A stretch of 26,202 nt of DNA from a virus, in IMG/VR virus record IMGVR_UViG_3300031857_016893, positions 1-26,202 of that record, one strand, 5' to 3'. The notes beneath the pieces were generated by a model. That model ran no database searches. It was given only the letters and a program-made list of their open reading frames with translations, and was not told the DNA's origin. Of the stretch, positions 20,775 to 26,202 are shown one piece after another; position 1 is the stretch's first letter; each line of letters opens with the position of its first letter. The position numbers were made by a program, and so were the translations under genes.

Positions 20775-21515
20775 TTATTTTTTGGATAAAGAAAGTTCTT
20801 TGTCAAGTATTTGATTTTCCAAATTAAACAATTTTTCAATATGACCGGACCTTCTTAAGTATTTAAATACAATATTTTCGTAAGAAAACTCTCCACCTTT
20901 CTCAAGACCACAACCTCTAAACTTCTTAAGTTTTTGTCTATACTTGTCAATCAATTCTTTCGATTCTTCTGCCGACATACCTGTAGTTGTCTCTGTAACA
21001 CCATCAATGATATTAACCCATTGGTTAATTTTCTCTTTTAATATTTTTTTATCAATATCAATTTTTTCGTGTTTAGGTTTGACTAACCATTCATCATATA
21101 ACACAGAATAAACACCTGAACTGAAATGAGATTCATTACTATCTTGTACATATACCTCAACATCAAACCCATATATTTTAATATTGTGAACATTATTAAA
21201 AATTGTTTTTTTAACTTTAAACAATTCGGTATATAATTCTAATTTATCTTCTTCAAATTGAGTGAAGTCAACAACTAAGTGTAGGTCAACATCTGAAAAT
21301 TTTGACCAATTGTAGTTAGCCAATGAACCTGTCATTATTATATCCTCAACAAAAAAATCTACCCCAATAAAATCTCTGAATAGTTCAGAAACTTTAATTA
21401 AGTTTAATTTTACTTCATTTTTTAGTTGTGGTGGATTTTCTTCCAAATCCCAAACTGTTGGACAAAGTGTCGGTTGTAATTTGAAACTATTTAATATTTC
21501 TTGGTCTAACTTCAC
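20775..21515 (-). CDS. Nucleotidyltransferase-fold protein
   Basis: The 246-residue protein contains IMTGSLANYNWSKFSDVDLH (about 60-79), the pol-beta-type nucleotidyltransferase signature GS-x9-12-D-x-D with D75 and D77, and a third acidic strand GFDVEVYVQD (about 117-125) with D118. All three expected carboxylates are present, so it may be active. Possible acts include nucleotidyl transfer to a protein, RNA or small molecule. The rest is helical and basic towards the C-terminus. The start is GTG at 21515; no in-frame ATG precedes the NTase motif closely enough. A TATAAATA octamer (read on the plus strand) lies 3 bases upstream of that GTG. It sits between a KTSC protein and the structural block. 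Confidence 0.7.
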   Translation of the reverse strand: MKLDQEILNSFKLQPTLCPTVWDLEENPPQLKNEVKLNLIKVSELFRDFIGVDFFVEDIIMTGSLANYNWSKFSDVDLHLVVDFTQFEEDKLELYTELFKVKKTIFNNVHNIKIYGFDVEVYVQDSNESHFSSGVYSVLYDEWLVKPKHEKIDIDKKILKEKINQWVNIIDGVTETTTGMSAEESKELIDKYRQKLKKFRGCGLEKGGEFSYENIVFKYLRRSGHIEKLFNLENQILDKELSLSKK

Positions 21516-21535
21516 AAATATAAATACCTCAAAAA

Positions 21536-21778
21536 TTACAATTTTTTAAATTTGTACTTCTTTGCAATATTCTTACTGAAAAAACTCCCCTGTGATTGGG
21601 ACATTCTAAATTGAGTATACAATTGGTGGGGAACTTCCTCATACTCATACAACGTTCCATTCTTAAATTCAACAATCAGTTTCTTACTAATTGTATCATA
21701 ATCTGTTTTTGTAAGATTAGTTGATTCAATTTCACAAATAATCTTAGTACCTTCAATAATTTCTTTTTTGATTGCCAT
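21536..21778 (-). CDS. KTSC-domain protein
   Basis: This 80-residue protein fits the KTSC family: IESTNLTKTDYDTISKKLIV then EFKNGTLYEYEEVPHQLYTQF and GSFFSKNIAKKYKFKK. The family is a small beta-rich domain frequent in phages and near lysyl-tRNA synthetase fusions; I recall that its C-terminal K..Y pattern is typical. Biochemical function is not established, with RNA-related roles suggested. It is divergent from the Clp-like gene, with 78 bases between the two starts, and lies 20 bases before the nucleotidyltransferase start, likely in one transcript. Confidence 0.75.
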   Translation of the reverse strand: MAIKKEIIEGTKIICEIESTNLTKTDYDTISKKLIVEFKNGTLYEYEEVPHQLYTQFRMSQSQGSFFSKNIAKKYKFKKL

Positions 21779-21856: not shown

Positions 21857-23905
21857 ATGACAGATTCAGTTGATGACGGAATGAAACTTCCTAAAAAAGT
21901 TGAGACAAATAGTTCTACTCCTGTTTTGGATAACTTTAGTAGAGACTTGATTAAACTTGCCGAAGAAGGTAAGTTAGACCCTGTTGTGGGTAGAGAAAAT
22001 GAGATTATACGAATTGCTCAAATTCTATCAAGAAGAAAGAAAAATAACCCTATTATTATAGGTGAACCTGGTTGTGGTAAAACTGCAATTGTTGAAGGTT
22101 TGGCTATGAAGATTTTTGATGGTGATTGCCCAAGAAATCTATTAGATAAAAGAATTCTATCTTTAGAAATGAACTCAGTAATTGCCGGTACAAAGTACCG
22201 TGGACAATTTGAGGAAAGATTAAAAGTTATCTTGGAAGAAATTCAAGCGAATCCAAATGTAATTTTGTTTATTGATGAGATTCACACTATTGTAGGTGCA
22301 GGTAACGCATCAGGTTCATTAGACGCATCTAATATCTTGAAACCCGCATTATCAAGAGGTGAAATTCAATGTATTGGAGCAACCACGTTGGACGAGTACA
22401 AAAAACAAATTGAAAAGGACGGAGCGTTAGACCGCAGATTTCAAAAAGTTATAGTTAGTCCATCTACTAAACAAGAAACGTTACAAATTTTACAAAACGT
22501 AAAAGATAAGTACGAAAACTACCATAAAGTAAATTTTACAGATAACATTCTTCAAATCTGTGTTGATTTAGCGGAACGATATATCACCGACAGAGAATTC
22601 CCTGATAAGGCATTTGATATTTTAGATGAGGTCGGAGCAAGAGCTCAAGTAGATGTTAAAAATCCTGAGATTATTGAGGAACTAAAACGACAAGCTCAAG
22701 AAATTAAACAACAAAAACTTTTGGTTGTTAAAAAACAAAATTATGAGGAAGCCGCAAACCTTCGTGATAAAGAGAAAAAGGTTTTACACCAACTTGATAT
22801 TGAGAAGAAATTGTTTGAACAAGATTTGCTTGAAAACAGAAAGGAAATCCCTGAAGAACTTGTTTACGAAGTAGTTTCAACAATGACCAAGATTCCATTA
22901 ACCAAATTAAGTTTGGATGATAAAAATGTTTTATTAAATTTGGAGGATGAATTAAATAATTCAGTTATTGGTCAAAAAGAGGCAATTGTTAAAATTGCAA
23001 AATCAATTAGAAGAAACCGTTTAGGTATTAAAGACCCAAATAAACCGATTGGTTCATTTATCTTCTTAGGTTCAACTGGTGTTGGTAAGACATTGTTGGC
23101 AAAAGAACTGGCAAAACAGATTTTTGGAAGTGATGAAAACCTTATCCGTATTGATATGAGTGAATTCCAAGAAAAACATACGGTATCCCGTTTGATTGGT
23201 TCACCTCCTGGTTATGTTGGTTATGATGAAGGTGGACAGTTAACTGAACAAGTAAAAACTAAACCATATTCAGTGGTATTATTTGACGAGGTTGAAAAGG
23301 CACACAAAGATATATTCTCAGCATTACTTCAACTTTTAGATGAAGGATATATGACAGATAGTTTTGGAAGAAAAATTAATTTCAAAAACTGTTTAATCAT
23401 TATGACATCAAACTTAGGTGTTAAGAAAATGCAAGACTTTGGTTCAGGAGTTGGATTTGGTACAGGAAATAACGTATATGCTAACGAAGAGTTGAAAAAG
23501 AATATGTTAAACAAGGAACTTAAAAACCATTTTGCACCTGAATTTATTAATCGTTTAGATGAGGTTATTGTATTTAACACTCTTAAAAATGATGATGTTC
23601 AAAAAATTGTTAGAGTTGAAATTGGTAAACTTCAAAGCAGATTATCAAAACTTGGATATAATATCACATTTGATGAATCAATTATTGAGTACATTTCAAA
23701 AGTTGGATTTGATGATGTATACGGGGCTCGTCCACTAAAAAGAGCAATCCAAGAAAAGATTGAGGACTTTATTTCAGATGAAGTTTTGAGAGATAATGTT
23801 AATACTGAAGACAGTTATCTCATCTCAATTAATGAGGAAACGGTATCAATTCAAAAGGTTGAGGCCAAACCTGAGAAAAAGAAGAGAAAAAGAAAGGGAG
23901 AATAA
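21857..23905 (+). CDS. ClpA/ClpC-like AAA+ protein unfoldase lacking the N-domain
   Basis: The 682-residue protein has two AAA+ modules. D1: Walker A GEPGCGKT (69-76), pore-loop GTKYRGQFEER (111-121), Walker B ILFIDE (136-141), Arg-finger region LDRRF (191-195). A short UVR-like middle segment (NYEEAANLRDKEKK, 295-308) follows, as in ClpC. D2: Walker A GSTGVGKT (405-412), pore loop GSPPGYVGYDEGG (448-460), Walker B VVLFDEVEKAH (473-483), sensor-2 GARPLKR (623-629). Homology begins at about residue 22, so the 150-residue Clp N-domain is absent. SGVGFG (530-535) sits where ClpA/ClpC/ClpX carry the ClpP-docking tripeptide, suggesting use of host ClpP. It ends in a basic KKKRKRKGE tail and a strong terminator. 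No phage ClpP is visible. Confidence 0.93.
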   Translation: MTDSVDDGMKLPKKVETNSSTPVLDNFSRDLIKLAEEGKLDPVVGRENEIIRIAQILSRRKKNNPIIIGEPGCGKTAIVEGLAMKIFDGDCPRNLLDKRILSLEMNSVIAGTKYRGQFEERLKVILEEIQANPNVILFIDEIHTIVGAGNASGSLDASNILKPALSRGEIQCIGATTLDEYKKQIEKDGALDRRFQKVIVSPSTKQETLQILQNVKDKYENYHKVNFTDNILQICVDLAERYITDREFPDKAFDILDEVGARAQVDVKNPEIIEELKRQAQEIKQQKLLVVKKQNYEEAANLRDKEKKVLHQLDIEKKLFEQDLLENRKEIPEELVYEVVSTMTKIPLTKLSLDDKNVLLNLEDELNNSVIGQKEAIVKIAKSIRRNRLGIKDPNKPIGSFIFLGSTGVGKTLLAKELAKQIFGSDENLIRIDMSEFQEKHTVSRLIGSPPGYVGYDEGGQLTEQVKTKPYSVVLFDEVEKAHKDIFSALLQLLDEGYMTDSFGRKINFKNCLIIMTSNLGVKKMQDFGSGVGFGTGNNVYANEELKKNMLNKELKNHFAPEFINRLDEVIVFNTLKNDDVQKIVRVEIGKLQSRLSKLGYNITFDESIIEYISKVGFDDVYGARPLKRAIQEKIEDFISDEVLRDNVNTEDSYLISINEETVSIQKVEAKPEKKKRKRKGE

Positions 23906-23919
23906 TCTCCCTTTTTTTT
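23893..23919. terminator. Bidirectional hairpin terminator after the Clp-like gene
   Basis: GGGAGA (23896-23901), loop ATAA and TCTCCC (23906-23911) are followed by eight Ts and preceded by As. The Clp-like gene's TAA lies in the loop, and the stop of the convergent peptidase gene overlaps the end of the T run, so one hairpin serves both. Confidence 0.8.
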
Positions 23920-24736
23920 ATCCAAAAATGTTTCTTGGTACGTGTTTAAACGGGTATTTCTTTAACCCAAGTTCTTCAATCATCTTTTTACCTGAATGAA
24001 TTCCAGCATATACCTCGTCAACAACAACATATTCGTTTTTTGTATGGTAACTGTGGTATCCAACAGACAGGTTAATACAAGAGAAATCAAACTTTTGTTT
24101 CAATTGCCAAACGTCTGTATATGGGTGTTGCATAAACTTCGGTTCAGACAACATATTTTCAGTTAATACTGTTTTTGCGGTTGTGTGGAAAACAGAATCT
24201 GTCTCAAACATTTTAACCCCATAACAATATTCAGTAACCATATAGTCATCAGGAGCGTCAAACTGAATTGCATATCCCACATTACTGAAGAATTCAGGGT
24301 CCGCCTGTTTTGAACCAATACAACCTACTTCTTCCGATACGAAAAATGCAACTTTGATTTTATCAAAGACTTCAAGTAATTGCAAACAAGCAAATACCCC
24401 ACATTTGTCATCACCTCCAATACCTGTTGGTTGACCTTCGTCGTTATAGGCTTTAAGACTGAAACTTTTATTACCCTTAGAATCTCTAAGGTACTCTTCT
24501 CGAATGTTAATAGTGTCTAATGGGTGAACAGTGTCGGTGTGAGCAACAACACAAGGATAATACTCTCCTTCGGACAATACTCCTTTGGTCACATAAATGT
24601 TACCAATTTCATCAAATACAAAATTGTGTTTTTTCTCAGATAAATAATCAATAAGAAAATCAATCATCTTATCTTCTTCAAACGTGTGTGTTGGGACAGA
24701 TAAAACCGATTTTAAAAAGTCAAGGTTTTCAATCAT
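23918..24736 (-). CDS. Compact M20/M42-type zinc peptidase
   Basis: The 272-residue protein carries the two-metal aminopeptidase ligand set: VVAHTDTVH with H66 and D68, GIGGDDKCGVFACL with D109/D110 bridging, FFVSEEVGCIGSK with E135/E136, an Asp in IQFDAPDD (160), and a final His in VGYHSYHTKNEYV (228 or 231). The order matches M20/M28/M42 peptidases such as tripeptidase PepT. Only about 68 residues separate D160 from the final His, so the usual lid or dimerisation domain of M20 enzymes (PepT has about 408 residues) is small or missing. It would act in the cytoplasm on short peptides. It converges on the Clp-like gene and follows the 358-residue gene by 24 bases. Confidence 0.8.
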   Translation of the reverse strand: MIENLDFLKSVLSVPTHTFEEDKMIDFLIDYLSEKKHNFVFDEIGNIYVTKGVLSEGEYYPCVVAHTDTVHPLDTINIREEYLRDSKGNKSFSLKAYNDEGQPTGIGGDDKCGVFACLQLLEVFDKIKVAFFVSEEVGCIGSKQADPEFFSNVGYAIQFDAPDDYMVTEYCYGVKMFETDSVFHTTAKTVLTENMLSEPKFMQHPYTDVWQLKQKFDFSCINLSVGYHSYHTKNEYVVVDEVYAGIHSGKKMIEELGLKKYPFKHVPRNIFG

Positions 24737-24760: not shown

Positions 24761-25837
24761 TTAATTAAACAACTCTGGATGATATAAATAATTTAAAAAT
24801 TCTTCAAAATCCATAATTGACCTACCGATATTAAAATATGTCCCTTTCTTTTTTCTAAAAATCTCAATCTTACCATCTTTAACTCTATCAATTTTAAAAA
24901 TCTCATCGGTTTCTTCACCATATTTTTTTTGCTTAGGTAAATCGTACCATACACCAAAGTTATAATTCAACTTTGAGAGTTTTTCAAAAATTTCTTTGTT
25001 TTTGTCTAAGACCCCTTCCTCCATTTCTTCCTCAATCTTTTCTTGGATTTTTTCTAAATTCCTTGTAACCTCCCTATCAAATGCTTCCTGGTCAAAATTC
25101 TTGTAGTCATAGTACGCATAATAATCTTCATATAAATCCTCATCAAGTTCTAAATTAGAACTTGTTACTAAATTTCTAAGAACTTGTTTAATATCATCAT
25201 CCTCAGAAGATTCAGTTCTTTTCCAAATTGATAATAGGACATTAACTGTTGTGAAATACTTATAAGTACATTGTTTTTCGTATATACCGTATATTTGGAA
25301 TTTATCGCAAAGTTTAGCCATAATGTACTCTTTCAATCCTGCAACTAAACAATCATCATATAATACTGCATATTCCCCTGTAATATTTGATATTTGAGAA
25401 TCAAACATTTCTACCATAAATTTAAAAACAACATCTTCGTATCTATCGTGTTGGGTTTTCTTTTCTAATAAAGATGGATTTAGTTGTCTAACTAATGAGG
25501 TAAATAACTCTTTATTTTCTTCACTAAATGAATCAAAAATATAACCTTCATTCCACTCTTCATCACTAAAATAACTGTAATCGATAAAAACATTACTATG
25601 ATACGACGGATTAAATGCAACTCTAATTAAATATTGATTATTACTATCATCACGTTCAGTATCAGTAAATAATTCAACATACTCGTCTCTATCAAACGTA
25701 AGAGATATCAATGATTTACCTAAATTTTTTTGATTTATGGTTTGAATTTGTACAACACCATCTCTACAAGACCTTCTAACGTCCCATTCATCGGCATTAC
25801 CATCTTTAAATTTAACAAGTGACTCGTATAACGTCAT
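24761..25837 (-). CDS. Hypothetical acidic protein, 358 residues
   Basis: I do not recognise this protein. It is acidic and rich in Tyr, Phe, Asp and Glu, with an N-terminal beta-type part (VVQIQTINQKNLGKSLISLT), a helical middle (EDVVFKFMVEMFDSQISNIT, CLVAGLKEYIMAKLCDKFQI), a highly charged coiled stretch (ATRNLEKIQ-like REVTRNLEKIQEKIEEEMEE) and a final basic beta part. No signal peptide, membrane segment or catalytic motif stands out. It is divergent from the tmRNA and just upstream of the peptidase gene, probably in one transcript. A TATAAATA octamer in sense orientation lies at 25878-25885, and AATAAATA lies at 25852-25859 on the other strand. Confidence 0.5.
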   Translation of the reverse strand: MTLYESLVKFKDGNADEWDVRRSCRDGVVQIQTINQKNLGKSLISLTFDRDEYVELFTDTERDDSNNQYLIRVAFNPSYHSNVFIDYSYFSDEEWNEGYIFDSFSEENKELFTSLVRQLNPSLLEKKTQHDRYEDVVFKFMVEMFDSQISNITGEYAVLYDDCLVAGLKEYIMAKLCDKFQIYGIYEKQCTYKYFTTVNVLLSIWKRTESSEDDDIKQVLRNLVTSSNLELDEDLYEDYYAYYDYKNFDQEAFDREVTRNLEKIQEKIEEEMEEGVLDKNKEIFEKLSKLNYNFGVWYDLPKQKKYGEETDEIFKIDRVKDGKIEIFRKKKGTYFNIGRSIMDFEEFLNYLYHPELFN

Positions 25838-25860: not shown

Positions 25861-25891
25861 TTGTGTAATCAAGAATATATTTATATCTTTG
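25861..25891 (+). promoter_or_regulatory. tmRNA promoter TTG-N20-TATCTTTG
   Basis: TTG at 25861-25863, exactly 20 bases, then TATCTTTG at 25884-25891 matches the Bacteroidota consensus in full. The mature tmRNA 5' end (25913) is 21 bases beyond, leaving a short leader that host RNase P would remove. Confidence 0.7.
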
Positions 25892-25912
25892 TAACATAGT
25901 TCTTTGATTTAT

Positions 25913-26202
25913 GGGGATGTTTTTGGATTTGACAGGAATGAATTTGTCATAAAACGCACGTCGGAGCTGAATTAACTCCGCTAAACTGATTCAAATTATA
26001 AACGGCAACGTTATTTCTAAACTTTCTTCTATCGGTTTAATCCGTACTGAAGAAGTATCTGTAGCTTAATCTAGGATTAACCTACTAGGGGTCGGCAGAC
26101 ATACAACCTTGCAACAGAAGTCGTAGTTGTGGTGTGGTTTCTACCCAAAAAGAAACAAAGTGGAGGATTAGTTCTCAGTAAACCGAACCACTATAAAATA
26201 AG
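25913..26202 (+). ncRNA. ssrA: Phage-encoded tmRNA (trans-translation RNA), 3' end outside window
   Basis: The 5' end GGGGATGTTTTTGGATTTGA followed by CAGG is the tmRNA acceptor and D-loop signature. PK1 is visible: CGGAG (25962-25966) pairs with CTCCG (25976-25980), and loop TGAAT (25968-25972) pairs with ATTCA (25989-25993). Ten bases after PK1 comes the resume codon GGC at 26004, the same spacing as in E. coli. The region ending AAATAAG fits the segment before the conserved CATGTAG and T-arm, so roughly 70 bases are missing. tmRNA with SmpB rescues stalled ribosomes and tags the nascent chain for proteolysis; no smpB is in the window. The encoded tag is unusually long and ends differently from host-type tags. 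Confidence 0.92.
26004..26069 (+). other. tmRNA tag reading frame, 21 codons
   Basis: From GGC the frame reads GNVISKLSSI, then GLI, then RTEEVSVA and TAA at 26067-26069. Typical bacterial tags have 8-15 residues and end in ALAA or a close variant; from memory Bacteroidota tags are about 9 residues such as GENNYALAA. This one is about 21 residues and ends SVA. The other two frames give either a hydrophobic 11-mer without a degron-like end or a stop after four codons. Confidence 0.65.

Follow-up and report, generated by a model that had tools for sequence, protein, structure and literature searches.

Introduction

Bacterial tmRNA of the ALAA type (RF00023), with tags such as GENNYALAA and GETNYALAA in Bacteroidota, is the closest described counterpart of the phage tmRNA reported here. 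Both share the one-piece form, the G3-U70 acceptor, the PK1 pseudoknot, the GGC spacing and the terminal Ala, whereas the phage tag has 21–22 codons instead of 9, lacks (Y/F)ALAA, contains an internal Phi-xx-L/M-xx-Phi-G-L-Phi motif and is linked to a phage Clp gene. Long tags with non-ALAA ends are known in Mycoplasma relatives, which use Lon, and the mf-ssrA tag of Mycoplasma/Mesoplasma is read by a non-ClpXP protease, mf-Lon (PMC9382460). The phage tag resembles the mf tag in its length and non-ALAA end but shows no evident sequence likeness to it, is viral, and occurs in phages with a ClpC-type ATPase in which no Lon was found.

Virus-encoded ssrA genes have likewise been described in mycobacteriophages, Bacillus phage G and methylophage Melnitz (PMC4131195, PMC9004378). 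The Melnitz tmRNA is permuted and SAR11-like, unlike the long-tag tmRNA, and amino-acid recycling has already been proposed as its role (PMC4131195, PMC9004378). tmRNA was reported in 402 of 18,146 phage genomes (2.3%; PMC9004378), and a survey of tmRNAs lists 79 unique phage sequences among 97,179 (PMC11915505). In the open-access literature, which was the scope of our search and excludes most subscription journals and preprints, we found no description of phages that share a conserved family of long tags together with an unfoldase inherited alongside it.

Results and Discussion

The tmRNA gene in the window

The window is the whole 26,202-bp virus record (G000 in our set), which carries the phage head genes for the major head protein, head protease, portal and TerL. 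The following features were assigned at its 3′ end.

25861..25908, + strand: promoter and boxA-like element, TTG ... TATCTTTG, then GTTCTTTGA; upstream of the tmRNA
25913..26202, + strand: tmRNA (ssrA) gene, 5′ three quarters; RF00023; 3′ end lost at the contig end
25962..25993, + strand: PK1 pseudoknot, stems CGGAG/CTCCG and TGAATTA/TGATTCA; exactly 10 nt separate it from the resume codon
26004..26069, + strand: tag reading frame from the GGC resume codon to TAA, translated as GNVISKLSSIGLIRTEEVSVA*

The RF00023 model matched positions 25913–26202 of the + strand with 42.8 bits (E 8e-16), truncated on the 3′ side and covering model positions 1 to approximately 300 of 374. Because the gene runs off the end of the contig, this score is slightly lower than the gathering score of 47 bits. 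The window holds the first 290 bases of the tmRNA, including the 5′ end GGGGATG, the D-region and the 5′ half of the acceptor. The covariance match, the pseudoknot search and the position of GGC confirm the 5′ signature, the complete PK1 and the 10-base spacing that a preliminary description had read from the window. ARAGORN called no tmRNA in the window; used alone, this program misses most long-tag tmRNAs or sometimes gives a shortened tag.

A TAnnTTTG-like site and a GTTCTTTGA-like box are found upstream of the tmRNA in most relatives. We take TTG...TATCTTTG to be a Bacteroidota-type promoter and GTTCTTTGA to be boxA-like, and a promoter of this predicted type points to a Bacteroidota host.

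Complete tmRNA genes in related contigs

Five related contigs (L001–L005) were retrieved with the adjacent protein as query. The tmRNAs of L001–L004 are 89–96% identical to the window copy over the aligned part. The whole gene, through to the terminal CCA, is present in L001 (124.7 bits) and L002 (138.3 bits). In L003 and L004 a group I intron splits the T-loop, and the diverged tmRNA of L005 encodes the tag GDLFANLVNEGLLKTEGQEVAIA. Among 26 long-tag records, 23 exceeded the RF00023 cut-off with full 1–374 coverage. The tRNA-like 3′ end, for which the preliminary description had proposed a search with the Rfam model, is thus present in the complete relatives. The G3-U70 alanine identity pair was observed in 68 of 68 complete genes, which were found with a pattern that fixes the G side of this pair and not the U side, and all seven acceptor pairs are formed in 65 of the 68.

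In a Python pseudoknot search, a PK1 with at least 11 pairs was detected at the homologous place in 44 of 76 distinct 5′ regions and in 8 of 380 shuffles, while a perfect two-stem fit was absent in 22 of the 76. The compensating stems include 31 distinct versions of stem 1 and 27 of stem 2; they vary yet still pair in most sequences. The sequence and known tmRNA biology point to a functional phage tmRNA in the window, for which charging, SmpB binding and trans-translation activity are predicted.

T-loop introns have been described in tmRNA before, and Bacteroidia are one of the minor sites. The group I intron at this position was also present in L008 and L010, and in L003 the site lies between GGGTT and CGA. 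Because L003 and L004 are the closest relatives of the window tmRNA, its lost 3′ end may also carry such an intron.

Conservation of the long tag

A first, narrow DNA pattern for the tag gave no matches. Searching viral contigs with a degenerate pattern for the C-terminal half of the tag gave 90 matching stretches; another pattern, written for a 23-residue variant, gave two. All of the matches listed are in frame with the resume codon, which is GGC or GGA in nearly all of them, and this places the frame well outside chance expectation. Across bacterial and archaeal genomes (257 Gb), the tag pattern gave one match, located inside a protein-coding gene and accompanied by no tmRNA. The long tag thus belongs to viruses in the collections searched.

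For the selection test, tags found by pattern were set aside, as residues are already fixed by the pattern used to find them. An unbiased sample was collected from relatives gathered via the Clp gene, not via the tag, and the tmRNAs in these contigs were located with a profile built from 44 distinct complete genes. All 55 full tags obtained in this way have 21 or 22 codons counted from the same GG(C/A) resume codon, and they represent 44 distinct peptides. The long tag noted in the window is confirmed, with neither the (Y/F)ALAA terminus nor the length of approximately 8–11 residues of the usual tags. The consensus is G-N-V/T-Phi-x-K-L/M-x-x-Phi-G-L-Phi-x-x-E-x-V-x-V-A. In 41 distinct 21-codon tags, G1, G11 and L12 are invariant, although they are written with 2, 2 and 5 codons, respectively; positions 4, 7, 10 and 13 are hydrophobic, apart from Thr at position 13 in 6 tags; and the last residue is Ala in 38, after V, A or T. 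The endings are mostly VTVA, VAVA, VSVA and VVAA, with some VYAA.

The pN/pS value of the tag frame was 0.62 for the 55 unbiased tags, against 0.82 and 1.20 for the other two frames. In the tag frame, variability is highest at the third codon position, and changes are mostly synonymous in that frame only. These results indicate that the tag is a peptide under selection and not debris, as judged from the sequences. Resumption at another codon in the +1 frame, which would read ATLFLNFLLSV, was ruled out, since selection follows the GGC frame.

From the window, where the gene is cut by the contig end and ARAGORN finds nothing, one might have suspected the remnant of an integration site or a host tmRNA copy that has decayed or shifted frame. 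The complete relatives, the conserved frame, the pN/pS values and the compensating PK1 stems refute this for the family and leave it a negligible probability. The comparison with related phages that the preliminary description had proposed gave no sign of decay from a 9-residue tag, and a frameshifted descendant of such a tag is ruled out by the conserved frame.

The same description had suggested that host ClpXP may ignore the tagged products. This receives no positive support, as the tag ends remain degron-like: terminal Ala is kept in 38 of 41 tags, and some end in VVAA or VYAA. That the tag shields or re-routes rescued phage polypeptides from host ClpXP is accordingly improbable. The tag end is unlike the host-type tags (GENNYALAA and the like) of Bacteroidota-type viral contigs, as evasion would have it, but the C-terminal Ala and the small hydrophobic residues persist while the tags vary. 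Protection would not call for an end resembling a degron, nor would it lead one to expect a ClpP-docking ATPase in all records.

The degron-like ends speak for the reading in which the tag is a variant degron for proteases of the host, either ClpXP or its ClpC with ClpP, and the phage Clp acts on other targets as an independent chaperone or protease. The endings VVAA, VYAA, VTVA and VAVA are compatible with it, and E. coli tags with changed ends, LVA and AAV among them, still drive degradation and serve as degradation tags (PMC9382460). This explanation, which we regard as fairly unlikely, does not account for the length of 21–22 residues, the invariant internal G-L or the hydrophobic positions.

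A long conserved internal motif could also act in localisation or assembly, for instance as a signal for a phage compartment or in the sorting of rescued proteins, with ribosome rescue as the main benefit. A similar C-terminus was sought among 1,453 other phage ORFs and none was convincing, which makes a role of this kind very improbable. In regards to the form of the motif, the hydrophobic moment at 100 degrees was lower than the permuted mean, which does not indicate an amphipathic helix; the hydrophobic positions instead recur at every third residue.

A Clp unfoldase encoded upstream of the tmRNA

The gene for a putative unfoldase lies upstream of the tmRNA, next to two smaller genes.

20775–21778, − strand: nucleotidyltransferase-like protein and KTSC-domain protein; adjoin Clp; kept in 77/80 and 78/80 relatives, respectively
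21857..23905, + strand: ClpC-type double-ring AAA+ unfoldase, 682 aa; phrog_4871 E 1e-237; Pfam AAA_2, AAA_lid_9, ClpB_D2-small, UVR

The phage Clp aligned end to end with residues 156–785 of S. aureus ClpC. As in the ClpC/ClpE-ClpP proteases, there are two AAA rings with Walker motifs, a ClpC-type M-domain, the pore motifs KYRG and GYVG and a VGF/IGF loop. The phage protein differs from ClpC and ClpE in being phage-encoded and in lacking the N-terminal (adaptor-binding) domain: homology begins at residue ~17, corresponding to ClpC ~156, and Clp_N is not among the families listed. ClpC and ClpE interact with ClpP through their VGF motif (PMC13125188). The docking loop FGxG[VI]GF is present in 12 of 12 aligned phage Clp relatives, with VGF in the window copy, and this conserved loop suggests that the phage Clp docks on ClpP. 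Two relatives, L016 (5237–7426, − strand) and L112, contain an intein-like unrelated stretch ending ...SSHNC immediately before the GKT of the D1 Walker A motif.

One such Clp gene per record was found in 26 of 26 long-tag records. For comparison, 26 viral records matching the canonical (Y/F)ALAA tag pattern were taken, many of which were confirmed as tmRNA by ARAGORN, and only 2 of these encode the Clp (Fisher P 1.5e-12, uncorrected for shared ancestry). The rarity of the Clp among viral tmRNA records with host-like tags is a second point that reading by host proteases leaves unexplained. Conversely, tmRNA was found in 58 of 80 contigs obtained through the Clp gene, and in 53 of the 54 loci with at least 3.5 kb of sequence downstream of Clp. 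The two genes are on the same strand, with the tmRNA 2.0–5.2 kb downstream in the 58 sampled loci; in G001 they are approximately 170 kb apart on the contig. The long-tag phages are a widespread group of large phages. The statement that phage tmRNAs are uncommon agrees with the frequency reported for phage genomes in general, but not with this lineage, in which the tmRNA is nearly universal.

The preliminary description had also proposed that another unfoldase takes the tagged products, which is the better half of its inference given the co-occurrence with Clp. A ClpC-type ATPase encoded beside the tmRNA and found in 26 of 26 records makes such a reader plausible, and recognition of the tag by the phage Clp is suggested by co-occurrence and linkage. 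Related Clp genes also exist without a tmRNA, as would be expected if host proteases read the tag: L363 has a Clp without a nearby tmRNA, and two phages of ~640 kb (LR756502, LR745206) encode related N-domain-less Clp proteins and have no detectable tmRNA. The phage Clp may therefore have other work too.

ClpP is encoded in 5 of the 26 long-tag records. SmpB was found in none of 25 long-tag records tested, and Lon, considered as a tag reader, in none of 26; most of these records are fragments, which makes such absences weak. The Mycoplasma-type Lon tag combines a YAFA end with a Lon partner, and the phage endings differ from YAFA.

Genes between Clp and the tmRNA

Two further genes separate Clp from the tmRNA in the window.

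23918..24736, − strand: PepT/M42-like metallo-aminopeptidase, catalytic domain only; Pfam M42/M20
24761..25837, − strand: fast-evolving 358-aa protein; adjoins the tmRNA; AlphaFold pLDDT 88

The AlphaFold model of the peptidase (pLDDT 94.8) gave PepT 3gb0 as the best PDB match (E 1e-13). The protein shares the fold and the metal and catalytic residues of the PepT and M42 TET aminopeptidases: H66, D68, D109, E135, E136, D160 and H231 are intact, being invariant in 38 sequences. It differs from these enzymes in consisting of the catalytic domain only and in being phage-encoded, between Clp and the tmRNA, a position that it occupies in 58 of 58 loci. The 358-aa protein is found there in 42 of 58 loci; it was considered as an adaptor, and its fairly confident model gave no PDB match below E 0.1.

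TerL, the nucleotidyltransferase, the KTSC protein and others are neighbours conserved to about the same degree. The phages seem to form a single lineage in which gene order is conserved, and linkage and co-occurrence may therefore be inherited and not functional.

Proposed mechanism

We slightly favour the interpretation that the locus encodes a phage module leading from trans-translation to proteolysis, with the tmRNA as its front end and the phage Clp, ClpP and the aminopeptidase as the following components. The tmRNA would be transcribed by the phage from its own Bacteroidota-type promoter, charged by host AlaRS through G3-U70 and delivered by host SmpB, and the ribosome would resume at GGC and add the long tag, A-GNVISKLSSIGLIRTEEVSVA, to stalled polypeptides; these steps follow from the sequence and known tmRNA biology. 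The N-domain-less phage Clp would then recognise the Phi-xx-L/M-xx-Phi-G-L-Phi motif together with the V-x-V-A end and dock by its VGF/IGF loop on ClpP, mostly that of the host or the phage's own where encoded, and the product would be degraded. The PepT-like aminopeptidase may trim the released peptides to amino acids, as its co-occurrence and linkage suggest.

In a stronger form, for which we would give somewhat less than an even chance, the pathway is viral and orthogonal: a dedicated tag is read specifically by a viral unfoldase that takes over host ClpP, a viral aminopeptidase finishes the process, and rescue and amino-acid recycling are independent of host ClpXP and ALAA. If true, this would be the first case, in the literature searched, of a virus that encodes both a degradation tag and the unfoldase matched to it. 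The specificity of the ssrA tag would then have switched in evolution once more, in addition to the switch in Mycoplasma. Such a pathway would offer a reason for tmRNA genes in phages and suggest a virus-owned route to recycle stalled proteins. The predicted pair of tag and ATPase could also give an orthogonal degron for Bacteroidota.

Other tmRNAs and RNA elements in related contigs and large phages

In the 484-kb phage LR756508 (L137, L140), the tmRNA contains an open frame of 36 codons that ends in PAAV, and the phage also encodes an N-domain-less Clp. A tag of 36 codons is unsupported, as no relatives were found. A separate 112-nt tmRNA-like sequence in this phage joins both tmRNA ends without the message part. 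The phage contigs L148 (235 kb) and L167 (184 kb) carry Bacteroidota-type tmRNAs with the tags GETTYALAA and GERTYALAA, respectively, and gave no Clp match. GOLLD RNA (RF02032) was detected in L308 (14256–14670, − strand, 325 bits) and L310 (15944–16351, − strand, 306 bits), in both cases approximately 2 kb past the tmRNA, on the opposite strand and near tRNA genes.
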